DNA of 41,022 bases from Brachyspira murdochii (GTDB lineage Bacteria; Spirochaetota; JAAYUW01). The stretch covers positions 76,593-117,614 of the forward strand of contig DYJT01000004.1 in assembly GCA_020722965.1 (NCBI GenBank), written 5' to 3'. The position numbers and the translations under genes were made by a program. Within the stretch, counting starts at the first letter, position 1; every line of letters begins with the position of its first letter. Under the pieces are notes generated by a model. The model searched no databases and was not told the origin of the DNA. It saw nothing but the letters and a program-made list of their open reading frames with translations. This document shows, in pieces, positions 22,778 through 40,877 of the stretch.

Positions 22778-22792
22778 TTGAATGGAGGAAAG

Positions 22793-23047: not shown

Positions 23048-23168
23048 TTTTAGTAGAAATATTTTAAATTCAAAATTTTTGAATTAATTTTTTTGCAATT
23101 AATGCAATTAATTTATTTAAAGATTACAGATAAAAAGATAAAATAAAACTTTTTTTTAAGAAAAGGTT

Positions 23169-24251
23169 GTGATTCAGAAAATTATCTATATTGTAGGTCC
23201 TACTGCTTCGGGTAAAACATATATTGCAAATAATTTGGCTATAAATTTTAATTTACCTGTTTTATCGATGGATTCGATGCAGATATATTCTCGGCTTGAC
23301 ATTGGTACATCTAAACCGACTAAAGAAGAATTAGAAAAAATTCAATATTTTGGAATTAATATAATAGACCCAGATTCTTATTATAGTGCTGCTGATTATA
23401 TTAATTATGCAAGGAATATAGTAGAAACCAGAAATGATAAGGCAATTATAATAGTCGGTGGAACTGGATTGTATTATGATGGGCTTACCGAAGGATTCTC
23501 GAAAATACCTCCCCAAAACACTAAAATAAGAAAAGATTTATATAGCATATGTGAAAAAGAAGGTGTTGAAAAATTATATAAAATTCTAGAAGAGATAGAT
23601 AAATCATATTCAGAAAAAATCACAAAAAATGATGCTAAAAGAATTGTTAGAGCATTAGAAGTATATCAGATTACGGGTAAACCTTTTTCTTCATTTCACC
23701 TGAAAAAAGATATTGCTGCAATCTCAGATAAGGCTTTAAAATTCGGAATTATTATGCCCCGATTCAGATTATACGAAAGGATTGATAAAAGAGTGGATTC
23801 CATGTTTCAATCAGGTCTATTAGACGAGACTGAAAGACTTTATATTAAATTTAAAGATGAAAATATTGATCTTCCTTCATTAAAAGCATTAGGCTATCAG
23901 GATATTTTTGACTTTTTTTCTGGTAAAATTTCTCTCGATAAAGCAAAGGAGAATATTAAAAAAAGAACTCGAAATTATGCAAAAAGGCAAATAACATGGT
24001 TTAAAAGGGACAAAGATATAAAATGGCTTTATCTACTAAAAGAAGATGAGCTTGATGTTGCAAAAAATATATCATTTGATAATTTGCAATTAATAAAGAA
24101 AAAAAGAAAAAAAAGTAGACAAAATTACATTAACCTTGAAACAGAACTTGTTGAATTTATCCTTTCTTTTAATAATTTTGAATTTATTGGCGAGAGTAAA
24201 GTTATTGAATACTTAAAAGATATCTTAAATGAATATATAAAAGGGAAATAA
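23169..24251 (+). CDS. miaA: tRNA dimethylallyltransferase
   Basis: A 360-residue enzyme adding the dimethylallyl group to A37 of tRNAs that read codons starting with U. P-loop VGPTASGKT (about 9-17), SMDSMQIYSRLDIGTSKP, GGTGLYYDGLTEG, DAKRIVRALEVYQITGKPFS, ALGYQDIFDF and RTRNYAKRQITWFKRD are all present. It is about 50 residues longer than many MiaA at the lysine-rich C-terminus. The start is GTG with AAAAGG very close upstream; no later in-frame Met precedes the P-loop. The stop is followed by the dxs start two bases later. Confidence 0.95.
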   Translation: MIQKIIYIVGPTASGKTYIANNLAINFNLPVLSMDSMQIYSRLDIGTSKPTKEELEKIQYFGINIIDPDSYYSAADYINYARNIVETRNDKAIIIVGGTGLYYDGLTEGFSKIPPQNTKIRKDLYSICEKEGVEKLYKILEEIDKSYSEKITKNDAKRIVRALEVYQITGKPFSSFHLKKDIAAISDKALKFGIIMPRFRLYERIDKRVDSMFQSGLLDETERLYIKFKDENIDLPSLKALGYQDIFDFFSGKISLDKAKENIKKRTRNYAKRQITWFKRDKDIKWLYLLKEDELDVAKNISFDNLQLIKKKRKKSRQNYINLETELVEFILSFNNFEFIGESKVIEYLKDILNEYIKGK

Positions 24252-24253
24252 TC

Positions 24254-26182
24254 TTGAACAAACTTGATTTATCACTTCTTTGCGATAAAAATTACTTTGA
24301 TTCTCTTTCGATACAAGAGCTTAAACAATATGCGCAATTGATTAGAGATTATCTAATAAAGTTATGCAGTACGAAAAGTTCGCATCTTGCTTCTAATCTT
24401 GGAACAATAGAAATTTTTCTTGCCTTAAAAAAGGTTTTTGATTTTGATAAGGATCTTTTCACATTTGATGTCGGTCATCAAATATATACCTATAAAATTC
24501 TTACAGGAAGATACGAGGCTTTGAATACTCTTAGAGAGTTCAATGGACTTTCAGGGTTTCCAGATCCTGAAGAATCAAAATATGATCTTTTTAAGGTTGG
24601 GCATGTTGGTTGCGCCTTACCTCTTGCCCTGGGTCTTAGCGAAGCGATGAAGGTTTCCAATAAAAACGATAAACAGATTGTTACATTGATAGGAGATGGC
24701 TCTTTGACAAATGGAGCAACATTAGAGGCATTAAATTATATCTCTAACAGAAAAGACGGAAAAATAATTATTATCCTAAATGACAATGGCATGTCTATCT
24801 CCAAAACTATTCCCTCTATAACGAAAAAACTTTCACTTTTTGCGACAAAACTGAATATTAGAGGGATTTTAGAAAGCAGAATGAATAAAAAGGGTTATTC
24901 CACTTCAATCCAAAATCTTGTCAGGTTATTTCAATGGCTTAAAAGTATTATTTTACCAAAACAAATTTTTGAAGATTTTGGAATTAGATATATCGGACCA
25001 ATAGATGGGCATAATATTAAAGAACTTATAGATTATTTTACATTTGCCAAAAAATTTAATAAAACAATTTTAATTCATGTCAAAACGGTCAAAGGTAAAG
25101 GTTTTGCCCCTGCAGAAAATAATCCTGAGCTTTTTCATTCCGCACCACCTTTTGATCCTATAACTGGAGAAGTAAAACAGTCATCAAATACATTTACCTC
25201 ATATTTTGGTAAGCTGTTAGTCGATAAGGCAAAGGAGAATAAAGATATCTATGCTATAACTGCTGCGATGAAGAATGGATGCGGACTTGATCAGTTTGAA
25301 ATAGAATTTCCCGATAGATTTATTGATGCTGGGATAGCAGAGAGTCTCGCAGTTTCACTTGGGGCAGGGCTTGCAAAATCAGGTAAATTACCCGTTGTAG
25401 CAATGTATTCTATTTTTTTACAAAGGGCAGCAGATCAGGTTTTTCATGATGTAGTATTAAATCATCTTCCTGTATTTTTTGCTATAGATAGAGCAGGACT
25501 TGTTGGAATAGATGGTCCTACACATCATGGCCTTTATATTTATCCCTTTCTTTTTTCTTTACCTGATTCATACCTTATTTCTTGTGGTATTATAGATGAT
25601 ATAGAATATGGCCTTTCTTTGATCGGGAAGATTAAACTTCCAGTCTTTATGCAATATCCGAAAGAAAAGGCATTTTATTTTAAGGATATTGTAAAAGAGA
25701 TTGAATCTAGTGTTAATTTATCCTTAAATTCGCAATATAAAAAAGATGGTATTTCGACAATTTCTGATAGGTCAAAGGAAAAATATCTTTGTATCCTTTC
25801 GATAGGCAGTTCTATTAATATTTGTAAGAAGGCTTTTATAGAATCATTAAATAATGATTTAATGGTTGATTTTTACTATTTGTCTTTGATAAAACCTTTA
25901 AATATTGAAAGGTTTACAGATTTATTAACAAAATATGAAAATATCATTGTAGTTGAAGAATCTGCTTCTTCCTCATACATTTATCAGAAGATGAATGAAA
26001 TTGCATCAGAACTCAAAATTAAAGGGGAAAAAAGTTCGACTATGTTTTCTTTTACTCTTGTAGATAAGATAATTACACATGGGTCAAGGGAGCAATTATT
26101 TTCAAGTATAGGGTTTTCCTCAGATCGCATTTATGATTTAATTAAAGAAATTTATTTGAAAAAAATTAATCAAAAAAATTAG
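24254..26182 (+). CDS. dxs: 1-deoxy-D-xylulose-5-phosphate synthase
   Basis: A 642-residue thiamine-diphosphate enzyme making DXP from pyruvate and glyceraldehyde-3-phosphate, first step of the MEP isoprenoid pathway. Catalytic His about 44 (SSHLASNLG), DVGHQ (about 72-76), KILTGR, the thiamine-binding GDGSLTNG...NDNG (about 147-179), the transketolase-type DRAGLVG and GPTHHG loops are intact. The usual G-H-S-S-T-S motif reads GHVGCA here (about 116-121), a clear deviation. Start is TTG with AAAGGG upstream, two bases after miaA, so translation is probably coupled; both genes feed isoprenoid metabolism (miaA uses DMAPP). Confidence 0.93.
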   Translation: MNKLDLSLLCDKNYFDSLSIQELKQYAQLIRDYLIKLCSTKSSHLASNLGTIEIFLALKKVFDFDKDLFTFDVGHQIYTYKILTGRYEALNTLREFNGLSGFPDPEESKYDLFKVGHVGCALPLALGLSEAMKVSNKNDKQIVTLIGDGSLTNGATLEALNYISNRKDGKIIIILNDNGMSISKTIPSITKKLSLFATKLNIRGILESRMNKKGYSTSIQNLVRLFQWLKSIILPKQIFEDFGIRYIGPIDGHNIKELIDYFTFAKKFNKTILIHVKTVKGKGFAPAENNPELFHSAPPFDPITGEVKQSSNTFTSYFGKLLVDKAKENKDIYAITAAMKNGCGLDQFEIEFPDRFIDAGIAESLAVSLGAGLAKSGKLPVVAMYSIFLQRAADQVFHDVVLNHLPVFFAIDRAGLVGIDGPTHHGLYIYPFLFSLPDSYLISCGIIDDIEYGLSLIGKIKLPVFMQYPKEKAFYFKDIVKEIESSVNLSLNSQYKKDGISTISDRSKEKYLCILSIGSSINICKKAFIESLNNDLMVDFYYLSLIKPLNIERFTDLLTKYENIIVVEESASSSYIYQKMNEIASELKIKGEKSSTMFSFTLVDKIITHGSREQLFSSIGFSSDRIYDLIKEIYLKKINQKN

Positions 26183-26328
26183 AAAAATTAATTAACTATA
26201 AAAATTAAAAGAAAAATAATTAGAAAAATTAATTAAAAAATTTATAAAAAATTAACTATAAAAATTAGAAAAAATTAATTATAAAAATTAAATAAAAATT
26301 TTAATTAGATAAACAATAGGAGAATTTA
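26183..26328. repeat. degenerate AT repeat between dxs and folP
   Basis: Short units such as AATTAACTATAAAAATTA and AGAAAAATTAATTA recur several times, almost without G or C. No gene, hairpin terminator or clear promoter is seen; AGGAGA at the right edge is the folP ribosome site. Confidence 0.5.
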
Positions 26329-27555
26329 ATGATATTCCATGATATTTATGATTTGTCTGATGAAAATATATTTAACTTAAAAGAAGAACTTTTAAATGTA
26401 CAGGTTAGCGAAGAAGTTGTCGATTATTTGGCAACTAAATTTACCTTTAAAAGATTTTATATTAAGAATCTTGATTTTAGAGCGGCTAATATATTAAAAC
26501 AAGAGGCTCTATCACTGAGCCTTGATGCGGCTATATCATATAAGACCTATACTATGTCACCTGAAAAAACAGATGTCTTATTAGCCGGTAATTTAACACA
26601 ATTTTTTAAAATTTCGGAAAAACTAAAAAAGCAACCATTTAAACTTAAAGAATTAGGCAATGATATCGAGTATTTAATCAGTACAAAAGATTTTAACGAG
26701 TTAAATGTAGGTAAAATAATTATAAAACCAGATAAAAGCTGTAAAATCATGGCAATTTTGAATATTACACCCGATTCTTTTTATTGTGGTTCTCGGGTTG
26801 ATATGAAAACTCTGGAAGATAGAGTTATTGATCTTATCAATGCAAAGGTAGACATAATAGATATAGGTGGGGAGTCTACAAGACCCAATTCCGATCCTGT
26901 CAGTGAAGAAGAAGAGATAAAAAGGGTAATACCAGCCATTGAATTAATTAGGAAGATGACAGATATCCCTGTTTCTATAGATACATATAAATCAAGAGTT
27001 GCCGAGCTTGCAATCGAAAAAGGAGCGGATTTAATCAACGATATTTCTGCATTAACGATGGATAAAAACATGGTCAAGGTTGTTAAACAAAGCAATAAAC
27101 CAGTTATTTTGATGCATATGAAAGGGACACCTAAAAATATGCAACAAAATCCCTCATATGATAATTTGATAGATGAAGTTTATAGATATTTTAAGGAAAG
27201 AATTCAATATTGTGTTGAAAATGAAGTAGATGAGGGGAAAATCATAATAGATCCAGGTATAGGTTTTGGTAAAAGATATAAGGATAATTTGGTATTAACA
27301 AAATATCTTGGTTTATTTAAAACCTTAAAAAAGCCAATTTTATATGGGGCATCAAGGAAAAGCTTCATAGGCATAGCTCTTGGTAAAGATAATAATCCTT
27401 TGCCACCCGAACAAAGATTATATGGATCACTTGCGGTACATTTTTATGCTTCAAATGTTGCATCTATTATAAGAGTACATGATTACAATGAAACATTACA
27501 AATGGAAAGACTTAGAAAAAAAGTCAACGAGGTAGATCGCTTTGAACATACTTAA
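26329..27555 (+). CDS. folP: dihydropteroate synthase with N-terminal extension
   Basis: A 408-residue enzyme joining p-aminobenzoate to the pterin pyrophosphate in folate synthesis. The TIM-barrel DHPS domain begins near residue 139: NITPDSF (145-151), DIGGESTRPNSDPV, VSIDTYKS, INDISAL, VILMHMKGTP, IIDPGIGFGK and GASRKSFIG give all binding loops. Residues 1-135 are an extra domain of alpha/beta type that I do not recognise confidently; longer DHPS proteins of this kind exist in other bacteria. ATG follows AGGAGA. The 3' end overlaps cdaA by 14 bases. Confidence 0.93.
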   Translation: MIFHDIYDLSDENIFNLKEELLNVQVSEEVVDYLATKFTFKRFYIKNLDFRAANILKQEALSLSLDAAISYKTYTMSPEKTDVLLAGNLTQFFKISEKLKKQPFKLKELGNDIEYLISTKDFNELNVGKIIIKPDKSCKIMAILNITPDSFYCGSRVDMKTLEDRVIDLINAKVDIIDIGGESTRPNSDPVSEEEEIKRVIPAIELIRKMTDIPVSIDTYKSRVAELAIEKGADLINDISALTMDKNMVKVVKQSNKPVILMHMKGTPKNMQQNPSYDNLIDEVYRYFKERIQYCVENEVDEGKIIIDPGIGFGKRYKDNLVLTKYLGLFKTLKKPILYGASRKSFIGIALGKDNNPLPPEQRLYGSLAVHFYASNVASIIRVHDYNETLQMERLRKKVNEVDRFEHT

Positions 27556-28387
27556 AACAGTAAGTCTAATATTTAAAAATTATTTTATCCCTTTTTTGGA
27601 TATAGCCACGATGACCTTTGTTATCTTTTATATCTATCTATTTATACAGAAAACAAAGGCTGTAGATCTTGCAAAAGGCTTGTTTATAATACTTGTAGTA
27701 TTTTTCATAATGGAAATGATAGGTTTTCCAGTTATTTCGTGGCTTTTTGAAAAATTACTTTATAACATTTTAATTTTAATAATTATCCTTTTCTCACCTG
27801 AAATTAGAGTAATTCTTATGAATGTTGGTAAAGATACATCGAAAATCCTTAGCTCAAAAAAGGATGAAGATGCACTTCAAAAGATAGTATCGAGTATTAT
27901 AAAATTAGCTTCACGAAGAGATGGTGCAATATTTGTTTTCGCGCGTAAGGAAAATCTTTTTGATATTATATCTTCATATGTAACATGGGATGCAGAGGTT
28001 TCCGAGGATGTAATACTTTTTCTTTTTGACAAAAGGTCGATTTTCCACGATGGAGCTATAATAATAGATAAAGACTTTAGAATAAAAGCAATTGCGGCAA
28101 TACTACCTTTGACCGATGCTCCAGTTGATTCTAATATTTTAGAAAAACATATTGGAACCAGACACAGAGCTGGACTTGGAATATCTGAAAAATCAGATGC
28201 TATAGCCGTTGTAGTATCGGAGGAGACAGGACATATTTCTATATTCGATGAGGGGAAGCCTTATTTGAGTATTCCAGTTGAAAATTTTAAGGCAATTCTT
28301 GTAGAGCATCTTTATAGGGAAAAGGAAGAAGAAATAGAAATTGATGAAGAACAAGAAGATGAGGCAAAAAATGAAGATGATAAGTGA
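27542..28387 (+). CDS. cdaA: diadenylate cyclase, membrane form (c-di-AMP synthase)
   Basis: A 281-residue membrane enzyme making cyclic di-AMP from two ATP. Three membrane spans lie within about 12-88. The DAC domain (about 105-255) carries both catalytic motifs: DGA (170-172, in FHDGAI) and RHR (207-209, in GTRHRAG). The C-terminal 25 residues are very acidic (EKEEEIEIDEEQEDE). Start is TTG inside the end of folP, with GAGG nine bases upstream. It is followed by a YbbR-domain gene, the usual regulator partner. The C-terminus overlaps that gene. Confidence 0.94.
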   Translation: MNILKTVSLIFKNYFIPFLDIATMTFVIFYIYLFIQKTKAVDLAKGLFIILVVFFIMEMIGFPVISWLFEKLLYNILILIIILFSPEIRVILMNVGKDTSKILSSKKDEDALQKIVSSIIKLASRRDGAIFVFARKENLFDIISSYVTWDAEVSEDVILFLFDKRSIFHDGAIIIDKDFRIKAIAAILPLTDAPVDSNILEKHIGTRHRAGLGISEKSDAIAVVVSEETGHISIFDEGKPYLSIPVENFKAILVEHLYREKEEEIEIDEEQEDEAKNEDDK

Positions 28388-29330
28388 ATTTATCTCTCGC
28401 TTGTTTAATGATATAAAAGAACATCCTTTGCCATTTTTGATTTCTTTAATTCTTTCAATAATGCTATTTTATTATATCACCAATATTGGTGTTGAAAGTC
28501 TTTTGACGGTTGGTGATTTACACTATAATTTAATGTTAAATGATTTATTCGTTATAAATAAACAGAATATCAAGGTTAAAGTAACATTAAGAGGGAAGCC
28601 ACAAGACTTAAAACTTGTTAACGAAGATATAATAAAGCCTTACTTGAATATTACCGCAAATAAGCCTGGTGATTATACATATAAAGTCAATATAGATCAG
28701 GCTTATTTACCAGAGAATGTCAGAATTGTTAAAATTGATCCCTCAAGTGTCAGTGTATCTTTAGATAAGATTTTTAAAAAAAAGGTTAAACTTGAAGCCA
28801 ATATTGCTGGAAAGCCTCAGACTGGTTATTCTGTATCAAAGGTTTCTTTTACAAAATCGGAATATGTTGTTGTAGAAGGGCCATATTCGATTCTTTCGAA
28901 AGTCGAAAGTGTAAAAACAAATGAAATATCGATAGATGGGATTAATTTCCCTTTGGTATTACCCATAAAACTTGAAAATGAATCATTAAAAATAATTTCT
29001 CCTTCAGATAACCAGGTAATAATTGATATAAAACCATTGAAAATTTTAAAAGTAATAAAAGATATTCCAATTTTATTATCTAATAAAAATAATAAATTCA
29101 ATTATTCCTTATCGCAAAACAAGTTTGAAATAAGTCTTCTTACGACACAAGATCTTGCAGACAAAATATCTTCATCGGATTTTATCTTTGTTATAGATTG
29201 TTCATATTTTCAAAATTACGGGGTTTATACCATTAAGATAATACCTAAATTTATCGATTCAATTACAATAATTTCTACATCTCCAGAATTTGTGGAATTG
29301 ACAATTAATACTATTGAAGTAGTTAATTAA
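28371..29330 (+). CDS. YbbR-domain protein (CdaR-like partner of the diadenylate cyclase)
   Basis: A 319-residue protein with a short cytoplasmic start, one membrane span (about 20-36) and an extracytoplasmic part with about three YbbR-type repeats; each has a strand pair with V-x-V-x-x-x-G-x-P patterns (KVKVTLRGKPQDLK, KVKLEANIAGKPQTGYSVSKV, SKSEYVVVEGPYSIL-like). CdaR proteins bind and tune CdaA. I chose the ATG at 28371 because GAGG lies six bases upstream; it overlaps the cdaA stop. A start at 28341 is possible but lacks a site. Confidence 0.88.
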   Translation: MKMISEFISRLFNDIKEHPLPFLISLILSIMLFYYITNIGVESLLTVGDLHYNLMLNDLFVINKQNIKVKVTLRGKPQDLKLVNEDIIKPYLNITANKPGDYTYKVNIDQAYLPENVRIVKIDPSSVSVSLDKIFKKKVKLEANIAGKPQTGYSVSKVSFTKSEYVVVEGPYSILSKVESVKTNEISIDGINFPLVLPIKLENESLKIISPSDNQVIIDIKPLKILKVIKDIPILLSNKNNKFNYSLSQNKFEISLLTTQDLADKISSSDFIFVIDCSYFQNYGVYTIKIIPKFIDSITIISTSPEFVELTINTIEVVN

Positions 29331-29385
29331 ATTATTAATTAAATCGAGAAATATTAAAAAAGGATAAAAGTTAAAGGAGGTTTAA

Positions 29386-30132
29386 TTGGACCTGATAGTA
29401 CCACTTAGACTCGGTGTAAATATTGACCATTTTGCTACACTTAGAAATGCCAGAAAAGAAGGATTCCCTTCAATCGCACAAGCCGCAACGACCGCAATTT
29501 CTGCTGGTGCTGACATGGTTGTCTGTCATTTAAGAGAAGACAGAAGACATATAAATGAAGAGGACCTTTATATTTTAAAAAAAATTGTAAACAAGGATCT
29601 AGATTTAGAGATGGCACTGAGTGATGATGTCATAAAAATATCATTAGATGTTAAACCAGATAAGGTTACAATAGTACCAGAAAGAAGGGAAGAGGTTACC
29701 ACAGAAGGCGGACTTGATGTTAAAAGACATTTTGATAAATTAAAAGATCTTGTGAATGAATATAAAAAAAGCAAAATAGAAACTTTTTTATTTGTCGAGC
29801 CTGATATTGAGATTATTGAACTATCTGCAAAACTTGGTGTTGATGGTGTTGAACTTCACACAGGAAGATATAGCAGGGCAAAAGGTAAAGATCAGATCCA
29901 TGAATATAAGAGAATAAAGATTGCAAGCGAAAAAGGGAAAGAATCGGGACTTCTTGTTGCAGCAGGGCATGGACTTGATTATCAGAACACACCATTAATA
30001 GTAACAATCCCTGAAATTTTTGAGCTTAATATCGGTTTTTCAATTATCAGTTATTCGTTATTTGTTGGTTTCGAAAATGCGATAAAGCAGATGAGACAGA
30101 TAATGATGATCAATAGATTTTGCAAGCAATAA
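29386..30132 (+). CDS. pdxJ: pyridoxine 5'-phosphate synthase
   Basis: A 248-residue TIM-barrel enzyme making pyridoxine 5'-phosphate from 1-deoxyxylulose 5-phosphate and 3-amino-2-oxopropyl phosphate. Motifs NIDHFATLRNAR (about 13-24), HLREDRRHI, EMALSDD-type strand, VVPERREEVTTEGGLDV, VELHTGRYS and AAGHGLDYQN match PdxJ closely. Start is TTG with a perfect AAAGGAGG five bases upstream. Dxs upstream in the same region makes its substrate DXP, a functional link. Confidence 0.96.
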   Translation: MDLIVPLRLGVNIDHFATLRNARKEGFPSIAQAATTAISAGADMVVCHLREDRRHINEEDLYILKKIVNKDLDLEMALSDDVIKISLDVKPDKVTIVPERREEVTTEGGLDVKRHFDKLKDLVNEYKKSKIETFLFVEPDIEIIELSAKLGVDGVELHTGRYSRAKGKDQIHEYKRIKIASEKGKESGLLVAAGHGLDYQNTPLIVTIPEIFELNIGFSIISYSLFVGFENAIKQMRQIMMINRFCKQ

Positions 30133-30183
30133 GTTGCTATTGACATTATATTTATTTTTGTTAATATCTTATCAGTCTTTAAT

Positions 30184-30254
30184 TGCGGGCTAGTGTAATG
30201 GCAGCACGACAGACTCTGGCTCTGTTTGTGAGGGTTCAAATCCTTCGCCCGCAG
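30184..30254 (+). tRNA. tRNA-Gln (anticodon CUG)
   Basis: The acceptor TGCGGGC (30184-30190) pairs fully with GCCCGCA (30247-30253), followed by discriminator G. The anticodon stem ACAGA/TCTGT encloses loop CTCTGGC with anticodon CTG; the T arm is GAGGG-TTCAAAT-CCTTC with one G-T pair. A 5' U-starting acceptor is typical of bacterial tRNA-Gln. CCA is not encoded. It lies 51 bases after pdxJ. Confidence 0.93.
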
Positions 30255-30525
30255 TTTATTTTTATTTTCCAAATATTTTATTTTCCAACTAGCTGAAAAC
30301 TAATCTATCGGGTTATCGATAAATCTTTATTAAAAGATCTTTATAAAATTTGTTGTAAAATAATTATTTAATTTTTTTTTGTTAAAGCTTAGAAAAAGCT
30401 TAGAAAAGTTTAAGGCTTTTGCTAAAGTTTGCTAAAGATTTATATTGCAAGACATTGAATAAAGCTTCTAAAAATTTGAGGATTTACTAAAGATTTATAG
30501 AAAAATTTTAAAAAGGGGATTTATT

Positions 30526-30843
30526 ATGTTGATTTCCACGACTCCAAACATCGAAGGGAAAAAAATTGTAAAATATCTTGGTATTGTATCTGGCGAGGCT
30601 ATTTTAGGAGCAAATATTTTCAGAGATTTTTTCGCAAATATTACAGATATTATTGGCGGAAGAGCTTCATCTTATGAATCAGAACTTCGAAATGCAAAGG
30701 AAATAGCTATAAATGAGATGACAGCTGATGCATCTTATCTTGGAGCAAATGCCATTGTTGGGGTAGATCTGGATTACGAAACAATAGGTCAGAGCATGCT
30801 TATGGTCAGTGTCAGTGGAACAGCTGTGATTTATGAAGAATAA
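30526..30843 (+). CDS. YbjQ/UPF0145 family protein
   Basis: A 105-residue protein matching the YbjQ family of small pentameric proteins: [31 protein letters not shown], the R-x-x-x-Y-E-x-E-L-x-x-A core, and [16 protein letters not shown]. Function is not established, though heavy-metal binding has been proposed for the fold. GGGG precedes the ATG. The 271-base gap upstream contains repeated AAGCTTAGAAA and CTAAAGATTTATA units but no gene. Confidence 0.92.
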
Positions 30844-31265
30844 AAAACATAAGATGATCAAAAAATCACCTTACATAAAAATGATTGCCTTTAAGTCCCT
30901 AAAAACAAGATCATGTTGATAGAAAACAAAAATGATATCAGGGCAGAATTTTTGATTTTTCGTTTAACAAAAGTATTTTAATATATTACCTTATATATTA
31001 CCTTAATTATATTGTTAAATTTAGGAATTTGGATATTAGGTTTAAGATTTCAGGCAAATTTTTTATGAATAGAATTTTTATTTTAAGTGTTGGATTTATC
31101 TATACTTTATATACTATTATTTTAATCTTTGTTAGTAAGTCGGCAAGAAAAAGAAAATTACTTTCAAATCAGCAAGAAAATATAAATCCCTTCTAATTTT
31201 ATTCCTTTAAACTCTACAATTAGGTAGCCTTTTGACAATATTTCGAATAAATACTTTTTAATTCT
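30844..31265. other. gene-poor stretch before the phosphatase remnant
   Basis: After the YbjQ gene an imperfect hairpin TAAG-A-TGAT/ATCA-C-CTTA (30850-30873) has no U-run. A 43-codon frame (31065-31196, MNRIFILSVGF... with one hydrophobic segment and a basic tail) is the only open plus-strand frame I noted; it lacks a good ribosome site and is not recognised. Confidence 0.35.
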
Positions 31266-31589
31266 TTACTTTAATGAATCGATTAAATCTCTTGAAACAT
31301 AGAAAGTTTTACCATTATATACATTAATCGTTTTTGTAAAAATCTTTTTCCCATTAAGGAAGAAGTAATCTTTTTGAGCAGGTATTTCGATTTTTGTTGA
31401 ACCTTTAAAATATATCTTTGTTTATTTGGCCAGATCTACTTGAAATAGGCTTGCCATGTAAAGACCTATCTCTGTATTATCTATAACACCTTTTAATGTT
31501 TGATCTTTTGGATGGTAAATAGAATAAGCGATATCATCGCCAACATGGCTATTTGTAGTCCATCCTATAAAGGCTCTTTTACTTAACAT
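31266..31589 (-). pseudogene. alkaline phosphatase C-terminal remnant with stalk-like domain
   Basis: On the minus strand 108 codons read RAFIGWTTNSHVGDDIAY then GVIDNTEIGLYMASLFQVDLAK. This matches the C-terminal active-site region of alkaline phosphatases (G-W-T-T-x-x-H-x-G, where the His is a metal ligand, then G-V-x-D-N-T-x-I). TAA at 31422-31424 interrupts it. The part after the stop, IPAQKDYFFLNGKKIFTK...NGKTFYVSRDLIDSL, resembles a copper-amine-oxidase-N-like stalk domain. The catalytic N-terminal two thirds are missing: upstream codons soon meet a stop. So it is a truncated and nonsense-mutated gene. Confidence 0.75.
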
Positions 31590-31611
31590 AAATTTTCTTT
31601 TTGAAACTGAA

Positions 31612-31691
31612 ATTATAAAAATTTACAAAACAAAATTCATGATATATAAAAATTATTATAAAAATTTACAAAAACAAAAATTCATGATATA
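31612..31691. repeat. 35/37-bp direct repeat beside the cas locus
   Basis: ATTATAAAAATTTACAAAA followed by CAAAATTCATGATATA at 31612-31646 recurs at 31655-31691 with two extra A. The copies are 8 bases apart and lie between the phosphatase remnant and the WYL regulator. No array-like third copy is present. Confidence 0.75.
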
Positions 31692-31805
31692 ATTAATTAA
31701 CTAATTGTTAAATGCTTTATTTTATCTTGTTTACATACTATTATTTATAAAAATATTAATAAAATTTAGGCATGAAAATGTTAGCAAAATTCAGGGAAAA
31801 AATAG

Positions 31806-32782
31806 ATGGCAAATATCGAAAGGATTTTTTATATCAATGATCAAATAGAAAAAGATGGATGTATTACAATTGACAAAATTGCCAGTAAATTTGAAGTTTC
31901 AGAAAGGCAGATCAAAAGAGACATAGAATTCATGAGATATAGGCTCAATGCTCCAATTTTTTATGACAGGAAAAAAAAGATATATTTTTATGATAAGCCA
32001 TATGATAGTTTAAATTTCCACAATGAAAAAACCCTGTTAACATTCATTTTTTTTAAAAATATCATTAAAAATTCAAATTACCTTCCATGTTATTATGAAA
32101 AAATAAACAATATAATTCTGGAAAATTTACCAGAAAAATTGATGGATATAGCCGAGAATTTTATTTTATATAATACCATCGAAAATGAGGAAATTAATCT
32201 TGATTTTATTCGAAAGATAGTTGAAAGCAAAATTAATAATAATCTTATAAATATTGAATATTGCGATATTAAAATAATCAATCAAATAGATATATAAATC
32301 CACTTAAATTGATAAATTATACAGGAAAATGGTATTTAGTCGCATATGATTTACAAACTAATTCTTTAAGGACATTTTTGATTGCCAGAATTTCGAAAAT
32401 GCAAATTTCCGATAAAATTAAAGGAAACAAATATAATTTTGATAAAAAAATTATTGATAAATATATAACAGGTGGTTTTGGGATTTATAATAGTTTAAAA
32501 AGTAAAAAGGCGATTATAAGGTTTTATGGCAAAGTTGCAACTATGGTAAAAAATCAATTCTGGCATAAGGATCAAAAAATTGAAATAAAATGTGATAAAC
32601 AAAATAAAGAATATGTTGAATTTACTATTCCTTATTCTTTGCCAGATGAACTTTTGGGAAAAGTAATTCGCTATTCTGAATATGCCGAGATTATATCTCC
32701 CAAATCTTTAAGAGATTTATGGCTTATTAAAATTGAAAGAATGTATAAAAAATATATTGTAAATGAATCGAAAAAAATTTAA
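31806..32782 (+). pseudogene. WYL-domain transcriptional regulator, frameshifted
   Basis: The first 163 codons give an N-terminal winged helix-turn-helix (about 1-60; ITIDKIASKFEVSERQIKRDI) and the beginning of a WYL domain (NLINIEYCD), then stop at 32297. The other frame continues it exactly: NRYINPLKLINYTGKWYLVAYD, then LRTFLIARI and a C-terminal wing. One extra A in CAAAT near 32283-32287 would join the two into one protein of about 325 residues. WYL regulators commonly sit by defence loci and cas operons and bind ligands through WYL. It is a one-base frameshift: a broken gene, a sequencing error, or a two-part regulator. AGGGA precedes the ATG. Confidence 0.82.
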
Positions 32783-32805: not shown

Positions 32806-32828
32806 TATGTCATATTGGATATGATATA
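32806..32828. promoter_or_regulatory. dyad upstream of cas6, candidate cas-operon operator
   Basis: TATGTCATAT, spacer TGG, ATATGATATA form a dyad with nine of ten matching pairs (one G/T mismatch). It lies 24 bases after the WYL gene and 29 bases before the cas6 ATG, in the only gap of the cas region. Minus 10-like ATATAG falls at its right edge, so a bound regulator would block transcription. Confidence 0.6.
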
Positions 32829-32857: not shown

Positions 32858-33700
32858 ATGCGTTTTCAATGTAGAATTTATTTTGAAAAGGGGACAGTTT
32901 TACCTTTTAATTATAGGCAATATTTTCTATCACTGATTAAAGAGGCGATAATGAGTTCAGAAGATGGCCAATTTTTCTATGATAGGTATTATACTAAAAA
33001 CAAAGAAAAACCTTTTACATTTTCTGTTTATCTTGCATCTGAAAAAGTTGAAGATGGCTTAAAGTTGAAATATGATAATGTAAATTTTTATTTTTCGACA
33101 CAAAGTTTTGAATTTATATTCAGGGTTTACAATGGACTTAATAATATCAGTAAAAAAATTAAAGACTCTGAAAAAAAAGAAAAAGATTATAAATTTAGTT
33201 TTGGAGAATATAAAGTCATTTCTATTAGGGATTTTTATTATCATGAAGATAAGGATTTTTCAAAAGATGTTTTATCCTTTAAAACTTTATCCCCTTTTCT
33301 AGTAAGAGATCTTTCGGATGGTGATTATTACATTTATCCTGAAAATGTTAATTTTAATCAACAATTAAAATATGCAAAAAAAGTAAATATTGAAGAATTT
33401 GTGAGGGTTTTAAAAATTAGCCTTACTTCATTAATAAAAAATTTTGATTCTAATTTTGATGAAAATAATATAAAAACTCAGGATATTATTGATATTAAAT
33501 TGAAAGATTTAAAACCAAGTCCTATAATTCATGGCTCAAACAATGAAAATAAAAAAGTTTTTAAAATGACTTTTCCTGCATTAAAAGGATTGTTAAATAT
33601 AACCTCAAAACCAGAATATTTGAAATTGATATATGATTTAGGAATCGGCGCGAGAAGGAGTGAAGGTTTTGGGATGCTGGAGGTGGTGGATGAGGTATAA
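32858..33700 (+). CDS. cas6: CRISPR repeat endonuclease Cas6
   Basis: A 280-residue protein of the RAMP class that cuts CRISPR precursor RNA within the repeat and stays on the 3' hairpin or releases crRNA. The C-terminal glycine-rich loop GIGARRSEGFGMLEV (about 265-279) is diagnostic, and the N-terminal FKR-type ferredoxin fold (MRFQCRIYFEKGTVLPFNY) fits. A His about 35-50 residues from the N-terminus, usual in Cas6 active sites, is not obvious, so the catalytic residue is unclear. AAGGGG precedes the ATG. First gene of the operon; it overlaps cas8b1 by 11 bases. Confidence 0.92.
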   Translation: MRFQCRIYFEKGTVLPFNYRQYFLSLIKEAIMSSEDGQFFYDRYYTKNKEKPFTFSVYLASEKVEDGLKLKYDNVNFYFSTQSFEFIFRVYNGLNNISKKIKDSEKKEKDYKFSFGEYKVISIRDFYYHEDKDFSKDVLSFKTLSPFLVRDLSDGDYYIYPENVNFNQQLKYAKKVNIEEFVRVLKISLTSLIKNFDSNFDENNIKTQDIIDIKLKDLKPSPIIHGSNNENKKVFKMTFPALKGLLNITSKPEYLKLIYDLGIGARRSEGFGMLEVVDEV

Positions 33701-35312
33701 AGTCTATACTAGAGATTGGTATTATAACGCCGGTATTATAGGTTTTTTATTTGTATTAAGTGAAGGTGAAAGGGATATTGAACAAATAATTAAAAATTTT
33801 AATAACCAACTAATTATAGATGAAAATTATATTGAATTTGATTCAAGTTTAGTTGAAAATTATTATCAAAAATATGAGAAATTAGCATTTTCTAAGTTTT
33901 TTGATTTAGATAGTTATAGGGAAAGATTGGTTAAATTAATAGAGGAAATAAAAAAATTAGAAAAAAAAGTTCCTCAAAAAATATTAGCCAAATCTGGATT
34001 AGGCGGAAAGGTTGTAAATATTTTTTTTGAAAATTTTCATGGGATGTCTTTAGAAAACCTATTTGAAAAATTTCAGTATAAAGAAAGTATTTTATCGGAA
34101 GTTACTAAAATAAAAGAAAAACTAGATATATATCGAGATGTTGATGAGCTATATAAATTTATTATTGCAAAAAATCCTGAATTTGTGAGTTATTTTCTGG
34201 ATTTGGAGGTTAATAAAAGAATTTGCAATTTCAATAGCATTGAAAATTACATAAGGTGTTTGCGCAATGGTCTTGTTGAAAATGAAAATAATTCCTGTTT
34301 TATATGTCAAAAATATAAAAAAGAGCATGATTTCAGCAATGCCATAACCCAGGTTATAGGTTTCAACAACGATAATGCAAACTGGATTTGGGGATACAAT
34401 ACTTCTAAAGTGAAAATATGTTCTTTGTGTGCTTTAATCTATGCATCTGCTTTACATGGAATGATCTTTTTAAGAAAAAATATACAAGGTGAGTTAAAAT
34501 CACATTTTTACTTTTTAAATAGAAACATAGATATAAAATCTATGTATTCTTCGTCTATTCTCTTTAAAGAAAAAATTTATGACAAAGAAAATCAAAATAA
34601 ACCTTATTATACAATTATAAAAGAAGTAGTAATGGAGTTAATCAGGAATAATGCACAAAACGTATTAGAAAATATTAATTTTGTAACCATAGAGGAAAAT
34701 GAGTTTGGAGGACAAAGCACAAAAGCCTATAATGTTTATAATTTCAATATTACCCCAGAGCTGGCAAAATTCATTCAGATAATACAAACTAACGATATCC
34801 CCAAAGGATATTATATCATAAAAGAACATTATAATGATATCACAGAAGAAATACTGGAAAAGACTTTAAATATGAGCCTTTCGTATGAAGATTTAAATAA
34901 TTACTTTCAATATTATATACAGGAAAAAAGTTTCTATTCGCTATATCGAGTGACCAGCTATATTTTAAAATATCTATTTTATCTTAATGGAGGTAGAAGA
35001 ATGGACTCTATGAAAAAAATAGTGAAGAAAGCTTTTGCAAATGGCTTTGAAATAAGAAAAAAAATTGAGAGTGACAACAAAATCAAAGGCATTGCTTATC
35101 AATTACTGAATGATTTGAAGATTGGAGACAAGAACGCATTTATAGACAAATATTTACGATTATCAATGTCATATCAGACAGAAGTACGGCTGGGTAGTAA
35201 TAATGAACTTACTGATATTGATAATTTTATGCAGTTTGGTTATGCTTTTATCAATGGGATTTTGTCCCAAGAACAATCTGAAAATAACAATATGGAGGCG
35301 AAAAATGACTAA
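33690..35312 (+). CDS. cas8b1: type I-B Cascade large subunit Cas8b1/Cst1 (CXXC-CXXC family)
   Basis: A 540-residue protein matching the Cst1 family by its two zinc-finger pairs, CFIC (203-206 from this start) and CSLC (244-247), which frame about 37 residues in the middle. It is the large Cascade subunit that recognises the PAM and recruits Cas3. I chose the ATG at 33690 because GGAGG is six bases upstream; an in-frame ATG at 33660 lies inside cas6. It overlaps cas6 at its start and cas7 by 8 bases at its end. The family assignment also follows the neighbour order. Confidence 0.88.
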   Translation: MRYKVYTRDWYYNAGIIGFLFVLSEGERDIEQIIKNFNNQLIIDENYIEFDSSLVENYYQKYEKLAFSKFFDLDSYRERLVKLIEEIKKLEKKVPQKILAKSGLGGKVVNIFFENFHGMSLENLFEKFQYKESILSEVTKIKEKLDIYRDVDELYKFIIAKNPEFVSYFLDLEVNKRICNFNSIENYIRCLRNGLVENENNSCFICQKYKKEHDFSNAITQVIGFNNDNANWIWGYNTSKVKICSLCALIYASALHGMIFLRKNIQGELKSHFYFLNRNIDIKSMYSSSILFKEKIYDKENQNKPYYTIIKEVVMELIRNNAQNVLENINFVTIEENEFGGQSTKAYNVYNFNITPELAKFIQIIQTNDIPKGYYIIKEHYNDITEEILEKTLNMSLSYEDLNNYFQYYIQEKSFYSLYRVTSYILKYLFYLNGGRRMDSMKKIVKKAFANGFEIRKKIESDNKIKGIAYQLLNDLKIGDKNAFIDKYLRLSMSYQTEVRLGSNNELTDIDNFMQFGYAFINGILSQEQSENNNMEAKND

Positions 35313-36219
35313 TCATCTAAGTTTAACAGTTATTTTTAATGGAAGTAATTTAAATTACGGTGAAAGTATTGGTATTATTACAGCTCTAAAAAGAATTTCA
35401 TTTAAAGGAAAAAGCTATTCATATATCAGCAGGCAGGCATTACGATATGATGTTGTAAGAATAATGAATGAGGAATTCCAGATACCATTAACAACTGTTG
35501 GTATCGATGGAAAGGTTGTTCAATTTGATGCTAATGCTAAGATTGATAAATATCCTGAAATTGATTTGTTTGGGTATATGAAAACTTCAGGTATAGGTTC
35601 AAGGGGTAAGATAAGAAAAGCAATTGTACGTTTAAGTGATGCGGTTAGCCTTGAGCCATGGAATAATGACATTGATTATGGTAATAATATGGGTCTTTCG
35701 TCAAGAAATCCTAAATTAGATAATATGATTTTTCAAACAGAAATTCACAAATCCTTTTATTCATATACTGTCACTGTTGATTTAGACAAAGTTGGTATAG
35801 ATAATAATGATGATATCAATTTACCAAATGATGAAAAAAAGAAGAGAATAGAAGTTTTATTAGATTCAATAAATATTCTTTATAGAGATATAAAAGGGAG
35901 AAGAGAGGATTTATCACCATTATTTGTAATTGGTGGTATATATGAAAGCGGAAATCCATTCTTTTATAATAAGATTGAGCTTATTTTTGGACGAGATTCA
36001 GTAAAGATTAAACCTGAACCAATAAATGAAACATTGGAAAAAACATATGTAAATAAAACGAAAGTTAAAGATAAAACTTATCTTGGCTATGTAAAAGGTA
36101 TTTTCAGTAATCTTGATGAAATTGCATGTGATAACAATAATAAAATGAATGTAAATGAATTTTTTGCAAAAATAAAAGATCAATTAAATACAATATACCC
36201 AAAAAAGGGGAAAACATGA
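35305..36219 (+). CDS. cas7: type I-B Cascade backbone Cas7 (Cst2/DevR-like)
   Basis: A 304-residue RAMP protein that polymerises along crRNA to form the Cascade backbone. It starts MTNHLSLTVIFNGSNLNYGES and contains the Cst2/DevR pattern FKGKSYSYISRQALRYDVVR and DLFGYMKT. Start at 35305 is fixed by GGAGG six bases upstream; a longer frame from 35203 would lie in cas8b1. It overlaps cas5 by ATGA (36216-36219). Confidence 0.92.
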   Translation: MTNHLSLTVIFNGSNLNYGESIGIITALKRISFKGKSYSYISRQALRYDVVRIMNEEFQIPLTTVGIDGKVVQFDANAKIDKYPEIDLFGYMKTSGIGSRGKIRKAIVRLSDAVSLEPWNNDIDYGNNMGLSSRNPKLDNMIFQTEIHKSFYSYTVTVDLDKVGIDNNDDINLPNDEKKKRIEVLLDSINILYRDIKGRREDLSPLFVIGGIYESGNPFFYNKIELIFGRDSVKIKPEPINETLEKTYVNKTKVKDKTYLGYVKGIFSNLDEIACDNNNKMNVNEFFAKIKDQLNTIYPKKGKT

Positions 36220-36926
36220 AAACTTTACGATTAAAGTTGTATCAAAATCTTTGTAATTATAGAAAAGAAGGTGGCTTTGGATATATACAAACCTATCCTC
36301 TTCCAACTCCATCAATGGTAAGAGGTATGGTACATTCAGTTTTGGGGCTTACTGAATACAATCCACTGAAGATATCTATTCAGGGTAAAAGTGATGGTGT
36401 AGTCACCAATTTGCAAAGGGTATATAAATTTGATAGAGATCCCAAAAGTCGCCCCCAAAATCCTTATATAGTGTATGTAAAAAAAAGTCAAAAAACAGCA
36501 ACTCATAGTATTTTGTTTTTAGATTTGCAAATAAATGTCAATCTCATTATACATATTAGCTTTAAGAATGAAAGTTTGAACGATAGACTTTTTAATGCGA
36601 TTAATGAGAAAATAATAACCTTGGGAAGAAACGAGGATATAGTACGAGTAGATGAAGCAAAACTTGTTGATATAGCTACACCTACTTCTCGAAGTGTTAT
36701 TACAAAATTGCCAATGTATGTTTTACCCAATTATCTTGGTATGCCTAGCGGAACCAGGTTACGATTACCTTTTTACTATCGGACTGTTGAATCATTTGAA
36801 GAAAATAGGTTCTTCTATTACGTAGATGTTAATTATGTAGGTGAAGGTACTTCATTAATTAAAGAACAATTGCTGGAAGATGAAGAAGGTAATATTGTGT
36901 GTTTTTTAAATTGTAATTATGAATAG
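36216..36926 (+). CDS. cas5: type I-B Cascade subunit Cas5
   Basis: A 236-residue RAMP protein capping the 5' handle of crRNA in Cascade. It begins KTLRLKLYQNLCNYRKEGGFGYIQTYPLPTPSMVRGMVHSVLG, the N-terminal Cas5 signature with P-S-x-x-x-G-M/L. ATG overlaps the cas7 stop and follows AAGGGG. The C-terminal 8 bases overlap cas3. Confidence 0.9.
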   Translation: MKTLRLKLYQNLCNYRKEGGFGYIQTYPLPTPSMVRGMVHSVLGLTEYNPLKISIQGKSDGVVTNLQRVYKFDRDPKSRPQNPYIVYVKKSQKTATHSILFLDLQINVNLIIHISFKNESLNDRLFNAINEKIITLGRNEDIVRVDEAKLVDIATPTSRSVITKLPMYVLPNYLGMPSGTRLRLPFYYRTVESFEENRFFYYVDVNYVGEGTSLIKEQLLEDEEGNIVCFLNCNYE

Positions 36927-39102
36927 TAATAATAAATATATTTTTCTTGCGAAATCGAATAGCGAAACGATTGAAGAACATACTCAGAAGGTCTTGGATT
37001 CATACCAACATATAAAACAATTAGGCTACCTTGATATTGACGAAGATACAGATTTTATTGTAAAAAAACTACTCCACTTTCATGATGAAGGAAAAAGAAA
37101 TCCTTCCTTTCAAAATAGAATGTTGAGGTCACTTAAAAAAGAAACTTTATATAAATGGGAAAATGGTGATGTGCCACATGAATGGTTATCGCCTGCTTTT
37201 ATTGGTGAAGATGATGAACATACAATTAAAAATACTTTAAAAAAATTAGGTTTAAACGAAAATATCTTTTTTGATTTTTTTATTTTTGTTATACTATCTC
37301 ATCACCATAGAGAAAATGCTTTCCCCGATGATCATTTGATCGAAGAGATAATTAAATGGATTAAAGAAAATTATAACTTTAATGTGGATTATTATTACAG
37401 AGTACAAAATTTATTAAATAAATATAATGATACAACCAATCGAGATACATGGAAAATATATTTCCCTTATAGAATAAAATGGCTTGGGCTCCTTTATAAA
37501 TGCGATTATTCAGCTTCAGCAAATATAAATCCCGAAATAGCTTATAATGGTAATTATTATAAAGATCTTAAAGATTGGTTTTTAAAGAATAATTGGCAAT
37601 TAAAGGAATTTCAAAAGGAAGCCATTAAATACTCTGATAAAAGTTGCATTCTTGTCGCTTCAACAGGAATTGGTAAAACAGAATGTGCTATGAACTGGAT
37701 TAACGGTAAAAAAGCTTTTTATCTTTTGGGTATAAGAATTGCAGTAAATGTAATATACAAAAGATTTTTAAAAATTTTTAAAGAAAATGTTGCGTTACTT
37801 CATGGTGAATCCTCTATTTATCTTGCTCACAAAGAAGATAATGAACATGACTATGATATTGAGATCGCAAAGGTAAAACAATTATCATATCCAATCACAA
37901 TAGCTACTGCTGACCAATTAGTAACATCAGTTTTTAAATTTCCAGGATTTGAATTAATGTATTTTACTACATCATATTCAAAAATTGTTGTTGATGAAAT
38001 TCAAAGTTTTGCTCCAGCAGCTATTGCAGCAATTGTTGTGTTTTTAAAAGAAATACATTCAATTGGTGGAAAATTTATGCTTATGACAGCAACTCTTCCA
38101 TCTTTTATTAAAGAAGAATTTGAAAACATTGAAAATGTATATTTTCCCAAACCTATATTATCAGAGTCAAAAAGGCACAAACTGGGTATTTTAAATTATG
38201 TTATTGATTCAGAAAATTTTCTTAGACTTGTTCGACAAGAATGTAAAAATAAAAAAATTCTTATTATATGTAATACAGTTAAAAAAGCTCAAAATTTATA
38301 TGAATTATTAAAAGATTTAAATCCAAACCTTATTCACTCACGGTTTATTTTATCAGATAGAAGAAAGAAAGAAGAACAAATAATGAGTTCAAATTCACCA
38401 TGTATATGGATAACAACGCAGGTAGTTGAAGCTTCTTTAGATATTGATTTTGATATGCTTTTTACAGAAAATGCTTCAGTTGAAGCTTTATTCCAGAGAT
38501 TTGGGAGGTGTTATAGAAAGAGAGAATATGAAGACAAAAAGCCTAATATTTATGTTTTGAAATCTGAACCTTCGAATATCTATGATCCTTATCTTTTTAA
38601 TAAAACTTGGGATGCTATACAATTGTACGATAAAAAGTTATTATCTGAAGAAGATAAACAAGATATTATAGAAGAAATTTTTAAAGATATTGATTCAACA
38701 AATTATTATCAAGAATATAAAAAGCAAAAAGAACTTCTTGAAATAGGTTATAGAACAAGAAATAAGTCAGAAGCCGAATTTGACTTCAGACAAATCACTA
38801 ATAATTATGTTATTATTCCGGATTGTGTTTACACTCAACATGCAAACGAGATAAAAGCTTTACTATCGTTTATCGATAATACAAAGAATGATAGAATTGA
38901 TCGAATAAAAAAACAAGCTGAATTGATGGAATATACTATACCTCTTCAAATTTTCAGGAATCAGATTAATATGTTATCCAAAATAAACTCTAATTATTGT
39001 AAAAAGAAGAACATATGGATATTAAACAATACAAGTTATAATTTTGAAAAAGGTTTGGAAATAAAAGAGGTTTATCAATGTTATGAAGAAAATATTATTT
39101 AA
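36919..39102 (+). CDS. cas3: CRISPR nuclease-helicase Cas3 (HD plus DExD/H domains)
   Basis: A 727-residue protein that unwinds and degrades target DNA after Cascade binding. The N-terminal HD nuclease has H21, HD at 55-56 (HFHDEGK), H90 and H131-133. The helicase has Walker A STGIGKTECA (GIGKT 253-257), motif Ia LGIRIAVN, DEIQ (362-365; usually DEVH/DEIH), LMTATLPS (393-398) and QRFGRCYRK near the C-terminal motif VI. Full length for type I Cas3. It overlaps cas5 by 8 bases; cas4 starts 15 bases after its stop. Confidence 0.94.
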   Translation: MNSNNKYIFLAKSNSETIEEHTQKVLDSYQHIKQLGYLDIDEDTDFIVKKLLHFHDEGKRNPSFQNRMLRSLKKETLYKWENGDVPHEWLSPAFIGEDDEHTIKNTLKKLGLNENIFFDFFIFVILSHHHRENAFPDDHLIEEIIKWIKENYNFNVDYYYRVQNLLNKYNDTTNRDTWKIYFPYRIKWLGLLYKCDYSASANINPEIAYNGNYYKDLKDWFLKNNWQLKEFQKEAIKYSDKSCILVASTGIGKTECAMNWINGKKAFYLLGIRIAVNVIYKRFLKIFKENVALLHGESSIYLAHKEDNEHDYDIEIAKVKQLSYPITIATADQLVTSVFKFPGFELMYFTTSYSKIVVDEIQSFAPAAIAAIVVFLKEIHSIGGKFMLMTATLPSFIKEEFENIENVYFPKPILSESKRHKLGILNYVIDSENFLRLVRQECKNKKILIICNTVKKAQNLYELLKDLNPNLIHSRFILSDRRKKEEQIMSSNSPCIWITTQVVEASLDIDFDMLFTENASVEALFQRFGRCYRKREYEDKKPNIYVLKSEPSNIYDPYLFNKTWDAIQLYDKKLLSEEDKQDIIEEIFKDIDSTNYYQEYKKQKELLEIGYRTRNKSEAEFDFRQITNNYVIIPDCVYTQHANEIKALLSFIDNTKNDRIDRIKKQAELMEYTIPLQIFRNQINMLSKINSNYCKKKNIWILNNTSYNFEKGLEIKEVYQCYEENII

Positions 39103-39117: not shown

Positions 39118-39612
39118 ATGACTTCTCCAGTTATTACTGGTACACAGATTGCTTATTCCATTGTTTGTAAAAGAAAACTCTGGCTGTTTTCCAAAAATAT
39201 TTCTATGGAACATACAAGCGAACTTGTGGAGATTGGCAAACTTATTCATGAAGACTCTTATAATAGAAAAAGAAAAGAGGTAACATTTGATGGTATAAAA
39301 GTTGATCTCATTGAAGCAAAACGTGGTGTTATTCACGAGATAAAGAAATCAAGAGCATTAGATGAGGCTCATATATGGCAATTAAAATATTATCTTTACT
39401 ATTTCAAAAATATTGGTTTAGAGATTGAAGGCATTATTGATTATCCCCGATTGCGACGAAGAGAATTCATAAAACTTTTACCGGATGATTGTCTTATTCT
39501 TGAACATAAATTAAATGATGTTTTTATAACTATAAAATCAGAAAAACCACCATCTGTTATTAATAAACCATACTGCAAAAAATGCAGTTATTATGAGTTT
39601 TGTTATTGTTAA
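39118..39612 (+). CDS. cas4: Cas4 (RecB-type nuclease of the adaptation module)
   Basis: A 164-residue 5'-3' exonuclease that trims prespacers and helps select the PAM with Cas1-Cas2. The RecB core is H44, D63 and E74-I-K76, with Q88 and Y92 of the QxxxY motif. The iron-sulfur cluster ligands are C17 and the C-terminal C153, C156 and C162, with an extra C164 at the very end. ATG at 39118 follows AGAG. Three bases separate it from cas1. Confidence 0.94.
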   Translation: MTSPVITGTQIAYSIVCKRKLWLFSKNISMEHTSELVEIGKLIHEDSYNRKRKEVTFDGIKVDLIEAKRGVIHEIKKSRALDEAHIWQLKYYLYYFKNIGLEIEGIIDYPRLRRREFIKLLPDDCLILEHKLNDVFITIKSEKPPSVINKPYCKKCSYYEFCYC

Positions 39613-39615
39613 ATC

Positions 39616-40593
39616 ATGAAAGACTATTATATATTCAAAAGCGGCCGCATGAGCCGTAAAGACAATTCGCTTGTACTTGAAACCAAAGAAGAAAATATAT
39701 TTATACCAGTAAATGACATTGAAAGTATTTATCTATTCGGGGAAATTGACATCAACACAAAGGCTATAAATTTTTTAGCCCAGCAGAAAATTGTAGTTCA
39801 TTTTTTTAATTATTATGGTTGGTATTCAGGTAGTTTTTATCCAAAAGAAAGTCTTTTATCAGGTTATGTTATAGTTAATCAAGTTCAACATTTTTTAGAA
39901 AAAGAAAAAAGAATGTATCTTGCTAAGCAATTTGTTAAAGCAGCTTTTCACGGGATGATAAGAAATCTTAAGAGGTATGTAGAAGTAGACCCTCTAATTG
40001 TTGAAAAGATTCAAAACTATGAAAATCAGATAGATCAACAAAAGGATATAGCTGCTTTGATGGGAATTGAAGGCAATGGTCATGAAGCTTACTATAACGC
40101 ATTCAAATTTATTTTTTCAGATAAGGTTGAATTTACAAAAAGAGTAAAACATCCCCCAGACAACATGGTCAATGCATTGATTTCATTTGTAAATAGTTTA
40201 ATTTATTCAACAATTATAAAAGAACTGCATAAAACCCAATTAAATCCTACAATAAGTTATTTACATGAACCATTTTATAGAAGATTTTCTCTTGCTCTTG
40301 ATGTTGCTGAAATTTTTAAACCTATTTTTGGAGATAGAATAATATTTGATCTTGTAAACAATGGTACAATTAATGAAAATCATTTTGACAAAAATTTAAA
40401 CTATTGTTACCTTAAAGAATCTGGTAGGAAAATAGTTGTAAAAGAATTTGATGATAAATTGAATACAACTATTCATCATAGAAAATTAAACAGAAAGGTT
40501 AGTTATAAACAAATTATAAGATTAGAATTATATAAGCTTATAAAACATTTAATCAACGAAGAAAATTATAAACCATTTTTAATCTGGTGGTAA
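39616..40593 (+). CDS. cas1: Cas1 spacer integrase
   Basis: A 325-residue integrase of the type I-B group, which inserts spacers into the array with Cas2. It shows the N-terminal beta domain (MKDYYIFKSGRMSRKDNSL) and the catalytic residues Glu152 (GIEGNGHEAYY), His217 (YLHEPF) and Asp229/Glu232 (LALDVAEIFKP) for metal binding. Arg/His-rich DDKLNTTIHHRKLNRK near the end fits the family. Cas2 begins just after its stop. Confidence 0.95.
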   Translation: MKDYYIFKSGRMSRKDNSLVLETKEENIFIPVNDIESIYLFGEIDINTKAINFLAQQKIVVHFFNYYGWYSGSFYPKESLLSGYVIVNQVQHFLEKEKRMYLAKQFVKAAFHGMIRNLKRYVEVDPLIVEKIQNYENQIDQQKDIAALMGIEGNGHEAYYNAFKFIFSDKVEFTKRVKHPPDNMVNALISFVNSLIYSTIIKELHKTQLNPTISYLHEPFYRRFSLALDVAEIFKPIFGDRIIFDLVNNGTINENHFDKNLNYCYLKESGRKIVVKEFDDKLNTTIHHRKLNRKVSYKQIIRLELYKLIKHLINEENYKPFLIWW

Positions 40594-40595: not shown

Positions 40596-40877
40596 ATGTA
40601 TACGATTTTAGTATATGATATTGATACAAAAAGCCCGGAAGGTAGAAAAAGATTACCTAAGATTATGAAAAAATGCAGGCAATTTTTACATCATACTCAA
40701 AAATCTGTTTTTGAAGGCGAAATCTCAGAAGCAAGATTATTTAATCTTGTGGCAGAGATTGAAAAAATAATTGATAAAGACGAGGACTATGTAGTTGTAT
40801 ATAATTTGCCAAACAAAAATAATCTTGAAAGAAAAAATATTGGAATTAATTTTGACCCAACATCAAATATATTTTAA
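40596..40877 (+). CDS. cas2: Cas2 (adaptation partner of Cas1)
   Basis: A 93-residue ferredoxin-fold protein. It begins MYTILVYDID with the conserved Asp8 and the GRKRLPKIMKKCRQFLHHTQKSVFEGEI block. The ATG at 40596 follows GGTGG; a GTG at 40587 inside cas1 is less likely. The start is 2 bases after the cas1 stop. Last cas gene in the window. Confidence 0.94.
   Translation: MYTILVYDIDTKSPEGRKRLPKIMKKCRQFLHHTQKSVFEGEISEARLFNLVAEIEKIIDKDEDYVVVYNLPNKNNLERKNIGINFDPTSNIF

Follow-up and report, generated by a model that had tools for sequence, protein, structure and literature searches.

Does the gene that adjoins the cas operon in this Brachyspira murdochii genome encode a working regulator, a broken one, or an intact one that was misread in a draft assembly? 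The window, by which we mean the whole analysed stretch of 41,022 nucleotides, carries an HTH-WYL-WCX regulator next to a cas operon and in the same direction, in support of a preliminary description of the sequence. The reading that we favour, and hold to be somewhat probable, is that a net one-base change, located at the first turn of the WYL domain, has put this regulator, which precedes a type I-B cas operon, out of frame. The loss would be recent, as both halves are still free of other stops.

A regulator divided between two reading frames

Frame A (31806–32297, + strand) encodes 163 amino acids before a premature stop and covers the winged-HTH domain, the linker helices and the beginning of the WYL domain (its first helix and strand). 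The remainder of WYL and the WCX domain are encoded by frame B (32273–32782, + strand; 169 codons, stop at 32780–32782). The two frames lie where the preliminary description had placed them. Frame B is 3n+2 out of phase with frame A, closed by a stop at 32270–32272 and open from 32273; its first listed start codon is TTG 32309 and its first ATG is codon 43. Both frames are open in the 22 bases at 32273–32294 (+ strand), the site of the frame change. The chance of an open run at the base composition of the window is P ~3e-7 for 169 codons and ~5e-7 for 163 codons, so the split frames are not a product of chance. Codon usage prefers frame A before ~32256 and frame B after it, and the optimum for the switch is a plateau within 32271–32295 with a score of 71.7, against −18.9 for frame A throughout (both scores include the contribution from in-frame stops).

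Homologues were searched in 60 genomes, the window's own and 59 relatives, and frame A was matched in 18 and frame B in 22 of them (E ≤ 0.001; the window's own genome is included in both counts). Neither frame was matched in the two same-genus genomes, G001 and G002 (89% and 93% complete). The closest full-length relative is a single 319-aa open reading frame (ORF) in G003, a genome of the same order, with 42% identity to frame A over 154 aa and 46% to frame B over 162 aa; G004 and G017, which also have homologues, belong to the same phylum as the window. A scan of genome contigs gave nine loci, five of them titled Spirochaetes, Spirochaetia or Spirochaetota. Among viral contigs, 58 pattern matches included no relative, and a search of plasmids with frame B gave five records, at ≤28% identity.

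All nine full-length homologues that were aligned (L050 and L068–L075) are uninterrupted and have no gap at the junction, a count that omits L054 and L076 (at contig edges), the two halves of the G009 copy (at two contig ends) and more distant matches. The nine are not fully independent, since L070 and L071 are 91% identical. Three further loci, L031, L038 and L043, were considered as broken homologues and rejected because their flagged stops lie only past their own C-terminal stops; likewise, the G009 copy is divided by its two contig ends and not by a frameshift. The comparison with orthologous regulators that the preliminary description had proposed as a check gave one frame in nine of nine aligned homologues against two frames for the window gene. 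By the requirement that all domains of such a regulator lie in one frame, the window gene counts as a broken copy and not as a working member.

These alignments also bear on the size of the change. When the junction of the window protein is filled with four unknown residues, nine of nine full-length homologues align to it there without a gap; a filling of five residues forces a one-residue gap on the homologues. A four-base change would be compatible with the phase and not with the spacing of the homologues. Judged from the alignment, a net loss of one base is the simplest change and the one that fits best, since the nine aligned homologues are uninterrupted and share the same junction spacing.

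The break falls within the WYL domain

Frame A matches Pfam HTH_11 (E 6e-5) with 23.3 bits, just below the cut-off of 25. No Pfam HTH match was obtained at 0.001 for the intact homologue of G003; in a structure model of the intact homologue L070, predicted together with seven others (mean pLDDT 76, pTM 0.47), residues 3–62 form three helices and two short strands. Frame B matches both WYL (PF13280, E 5.4e-10) and WCX (PF25583, E 1.9e-7) over their cut-offs, the former starting at profile position 28 of 70. At E ≤ 0.001, PF13280 was found at a single place in the 2,074,644-base assembly, the window regulator.

The WYL region of the L070 model consists of a helix (131–142) followed by strands at 145–152, 158–171, 174–181, 186–191 and 195–204, and the junction aligns with residues 156–159. 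The model thus places the break inside the WYL domain, at the turn between its first two strands, and not between domains. Of the preliminary claim of a one-base frameshift between the DNA-binding and ligand domains, the net one-base change stands and the position does not. The 163-aa product retains the HTH domain and the linker and, of WYL, one helix and one strand (the first of each); the rest of WYL and the whole of WCX are missing.

Recoding, phase variation or a split protein

Some full-length protein could still be made by programmed −1 frameshifting, transcript slippage or a change in repeat length. A −1 slippage would bridge the phase of the shift, and by eye the overlap contains roughly two and a half copies of a 4-base unit. 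However, no in-frame slippery heptamer (X XXY YYZ) was found in the overlap at 32273–32294, and none of the five in frame A extends past 32129, where the phase of frame B is still closed by stops. The longest homopolymer run near the junction is four bases, and none of the nine aligned full-length homologues needs a shift. With neither a slippery heptamer nor a long homopolymer in the overlap, we regard recoding and classical phase variation as very unlikely.

The two pieces might instead be made separately and assemble into a working regulator, with frame B re-initiated at TTG 32309. From the last base of the frame A stop it is 12 bases to the start of this codon, and conserved residues are kept in frame B. 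Against this, no ribosome-binding site is visible by eye before the TTG, the piece that starts there is missing the greater part of the second WYL strand, and none of the nine aligned homologues is split. A split but functional regulator is accordingly, in our judgement, highly improbable.

Assembly error or gene loss

The evidence for the frameshift comes from one draft assembly of 41 contigs and from one strain, and a base-call or assembly error, with an intact regulator in the living organism, has to be weighed. Such an error would account for two halves that are open and conserved with no further lesion, and a run of four A (32271–32274), straddling the left edge of the shared open stretch, touches the junction interval in DNA of 29% G+C. 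The contig also ends 145 bp past cas2.

Gene breaks were surveyed in this genome (393,568 bases) and in G001 (402,557 bases), using pieces with E ≤ 1e-10 and 80% total coverage, a procedure that misses shifts near gene ends and genes with less than 80% coverage. After the flags had been read, 2 of 53 orthologous genes were broken here, compared with 0 of 55 in G001; one of three flags in this genome was dropped (a stop before the likely start), as were all three in G001 (before the likely start, at the C-terminus, and in an ORF lying antisense to a frame that is longer and open both here and in G001). Single-base frameshifts were absent from the 53 orthologous genes (20,905 aa, ~63 kb), which puts the 95% upper bound on their rate at ~0.05 per kb by the rule of three, shifts near gene ends being missed.

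The two broken genes differ in kind from a homopolymer miscount, consisting of nonsense codons in one case and a longer loss in the other. In the fused TRAP permease (DctM) gene (19761–21794, + strand), in-frame stops lie at 20559–20561 and 20895–20897, and the gene is open in G001 (675 aa) and in a 595-aa part of the G002 copy; these two nonsense codons could themselves be base-call errors. The other gene, named aldehyde-dehydrogenase-like by eye (L105 7115–8573; G000:C14, ~47.1–48.6 kb), lacks ~52 inner codons, changes frame and is open in G001. Closer to the regulator, contig C93 of G001 is collinear with the window from 12000 to 31800, and two remnants between ybjQ and the regulator, at 30853–30972 and 31065–31193, correspond to two genes that are open in that contig and that we take to be cupin-like and ICMT-like. 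The genome thus seems really to be losing genes and to have a low indel error rate, which favours, short of proof, a real mutation. An error in the draft is possible, but we think it rather doubtful.

Two observations were made elsewhere in the window. A readable stretch with internal stops at ~31265–31595 (− strand) is possibly another gene remnant, and positions 6055–6153, inside an ORF at 4258–6318, match Rfam n00280, a family whose description is of an sRNA lying within a helicase gene, with 66.9 bits against a cut-off of 65.2.

The adjoining cas operon and its counterparts

The type I-B operon, cas6-cas8b1-cas7-cas5-cas3-cas4-cas1-cas2, lies entirely on the + strand, and by order and strand its eight Cas genes, all open, form a single operon. 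It comprises cas6 (32858–33700), cas8b1 of the Cst1 type (33690–35312; TIGR01908, 1.3e-22; start chosen by eye, with 33699–35309 used in the scan), cas7 of the Cst2/DevR family (35305–36219; start chosen by eye, scanned from 35203), cas5 (36216–36926; below the TIGR01895 cut-off and above the general Cas5 ones), cas3 (36919–39102), cas4 (39118–39612), type I-B cas1 (39616–40593; TIGR03641, 3.9e-137) and cas2 (40596–40877).

A CRISPR array probably followed cas2 and was lost in the assembly gap, as in G001 an array follows a related pair of cas1 (71% identical) and cas2 (67%), and the stretch after cas2 here (40878–41022) is weakly similar to the leader-like stretch that separates cas2 from the array in G001. 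The G001 repeat itself has no copy in this assembly at ≤3 mismatches, and a general-form CRISPR repeat pattern was rejected, having given three matches, equal to the reversed control. The contig stops at the end of this stretch, about where an array would be expected to start.

The regulator adjoins cas6 in the window. Of the relatives, only G003 and G009 showed a homologue beside a cas gene: in G003 it stands directly before an ORF on the same strand with a Cas6 C-terminal domain, and in G009 the neighbour is Cas12a, on the contig that carries the C-terminal half. The PADLOC 'WYL' CRISPR-associated profiles PDLC01457 and PDLC01652 match all five homologues scanned, in a scan that covered homologues of the window protein and not its broken pieces. 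By blastp, which was insensitive and also missed the G003 Cas6, no ORF like the window Cas proteins was found near the homologues in G004, G032, G017 and G056 or in L068–L075, two lists that overlap in three contigs. A weak cas1 match in L072 proved to be the regulator ORF itself. A family scan of a few other homologue neighbours, beyond those in G003 and G009, showed no cas family.

Further observations concern these loci and the rest of the genome. In G009, the C-terminal half of the homologue lies directly before the Cas12a gene (L056 10205–14452, − strand), and the same contig has repeats spaced like a CRISPR array. After the G003 Cas6 ORF, the stretch at L050 200–240 (− strand) looks by eye like a single CRISPR-type repeat. 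The window's own genome has a second cas locus on contig C27 (L145, G000:C27, 1665–12771) with its own cas1 and two short Cas2-like ORFs; judged by eye from its ORF sequences it looks like a Cmr type III-B system, and an extra 131-aa Cmr1-like ORF may be a broken copy.

Predicted consequences of the frame loss

The preliminary description had suggested that a regulator without its WYL sensor might derepress or lock the cas operon. This presupposes a repressor and a stable truncated product, and it is unsupported as stated, because the solved relatives include activators as well as repressors. Fold matches of the intact-homologue model, all with low TM-scores, are led by DriD, PafBC, BrxR and CapW, and sequence-profile matches in the PDB are led by PafBC, followed by BrxR and CapW chains. 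DriD, the best fold match, and PafBC, the best sequence match, are HTH-WYL-WCX activators (per their PDB titles) of other genes, in the DNA-damage response, and we saw no cas link for them. CapW and BrxR are repressors that share with the window regulator their domain order, profile and fold matches and a position before a defence operon. They differ in being intact, while the window gene is broken and has only a candidate operator, and in fold alignments with the modelled homologue they show 13–16% identity and low TM-scores. BrxR homologues are given as lying near CRISPR-Cas in 21 of 210 defence-associated cases in a passage of PMC9122601. Sll7009 is likewise an HTH-WYL protein linked to a cas locus, likened here by its description and reported in passages of two sources as a negative regulator (PMC4012209, PMC9122601); the window system differs in being of subtype I-B. 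A full-text literature search found nothing that joined WYL, frameshift, CRISPR and pseudogene.

From its position, we infer that the regulator acts on the adjoining cas operon. If the living organism carries the mutation, its 163-aa regulator fragment would be unable to form the usual dimer built on WYL and WCX. In CapW, as a section of PMC9122588 describes, these domains are swapped across the dimer, and by analogy a truncated protein that has lost WCX and the greater part of WYL is more probably inactive than locked on DNA. An inactive product would leave the cas operon without local ligand-responsive control, so that its expression would be constitutive if the regulator was a repressor and basal if it was an activator. 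Effects on the operon may nevertheless be mild, by analogy with BrxR: within PMC9122589, deletion of the gene is described as raising BrxC and being toxic, but both restriction and protein levels changed little with an early stop codon. We think it very improbable that the break is a selected change that freed an intact type I-B operon from ligand control, making immunity constitutive or basal in a genome that also has an apparent type III-B system.

The locus holds either an assembly error or a regulator of a known kind that is broken in an ordinary way. At most, nature has here knocked out a CRISPR-linked WYL regulator in a spirochaete that has been little studied, a case useful for comparison with strains that carry the intact gene, and a broken regulator alone says nothing new on mechanism. 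Automatic annotation would give two unrelated short proteins at this locus.

Candidate regulatory sites

An imperfect palindrome between the regulator and cas6 (32806–32828, + strand) is a weak candidate operator; it was equalled in 66 of 1,000 shuffles and is not significant. The best palindrome in the gap between the regulator and Cas6 in G003 was equalled in 146 of 1,000 shuffles, and those upstream of the regulator in 292 (here) and 121 (G003) of 300. The region has 10 promoter-like consensus sites, where shuffling gave 13.2 on average. One promoter-like site lies upstream of the regulator at 31665–31693 (+ strand), matching 11 of 12 positions with a TG before the second hexamer. The 33-bp stretch at 31659–31691 that contains promoter-like hexamers has a 76% identical copy at 31614–31646, starting 45 bp upstream.
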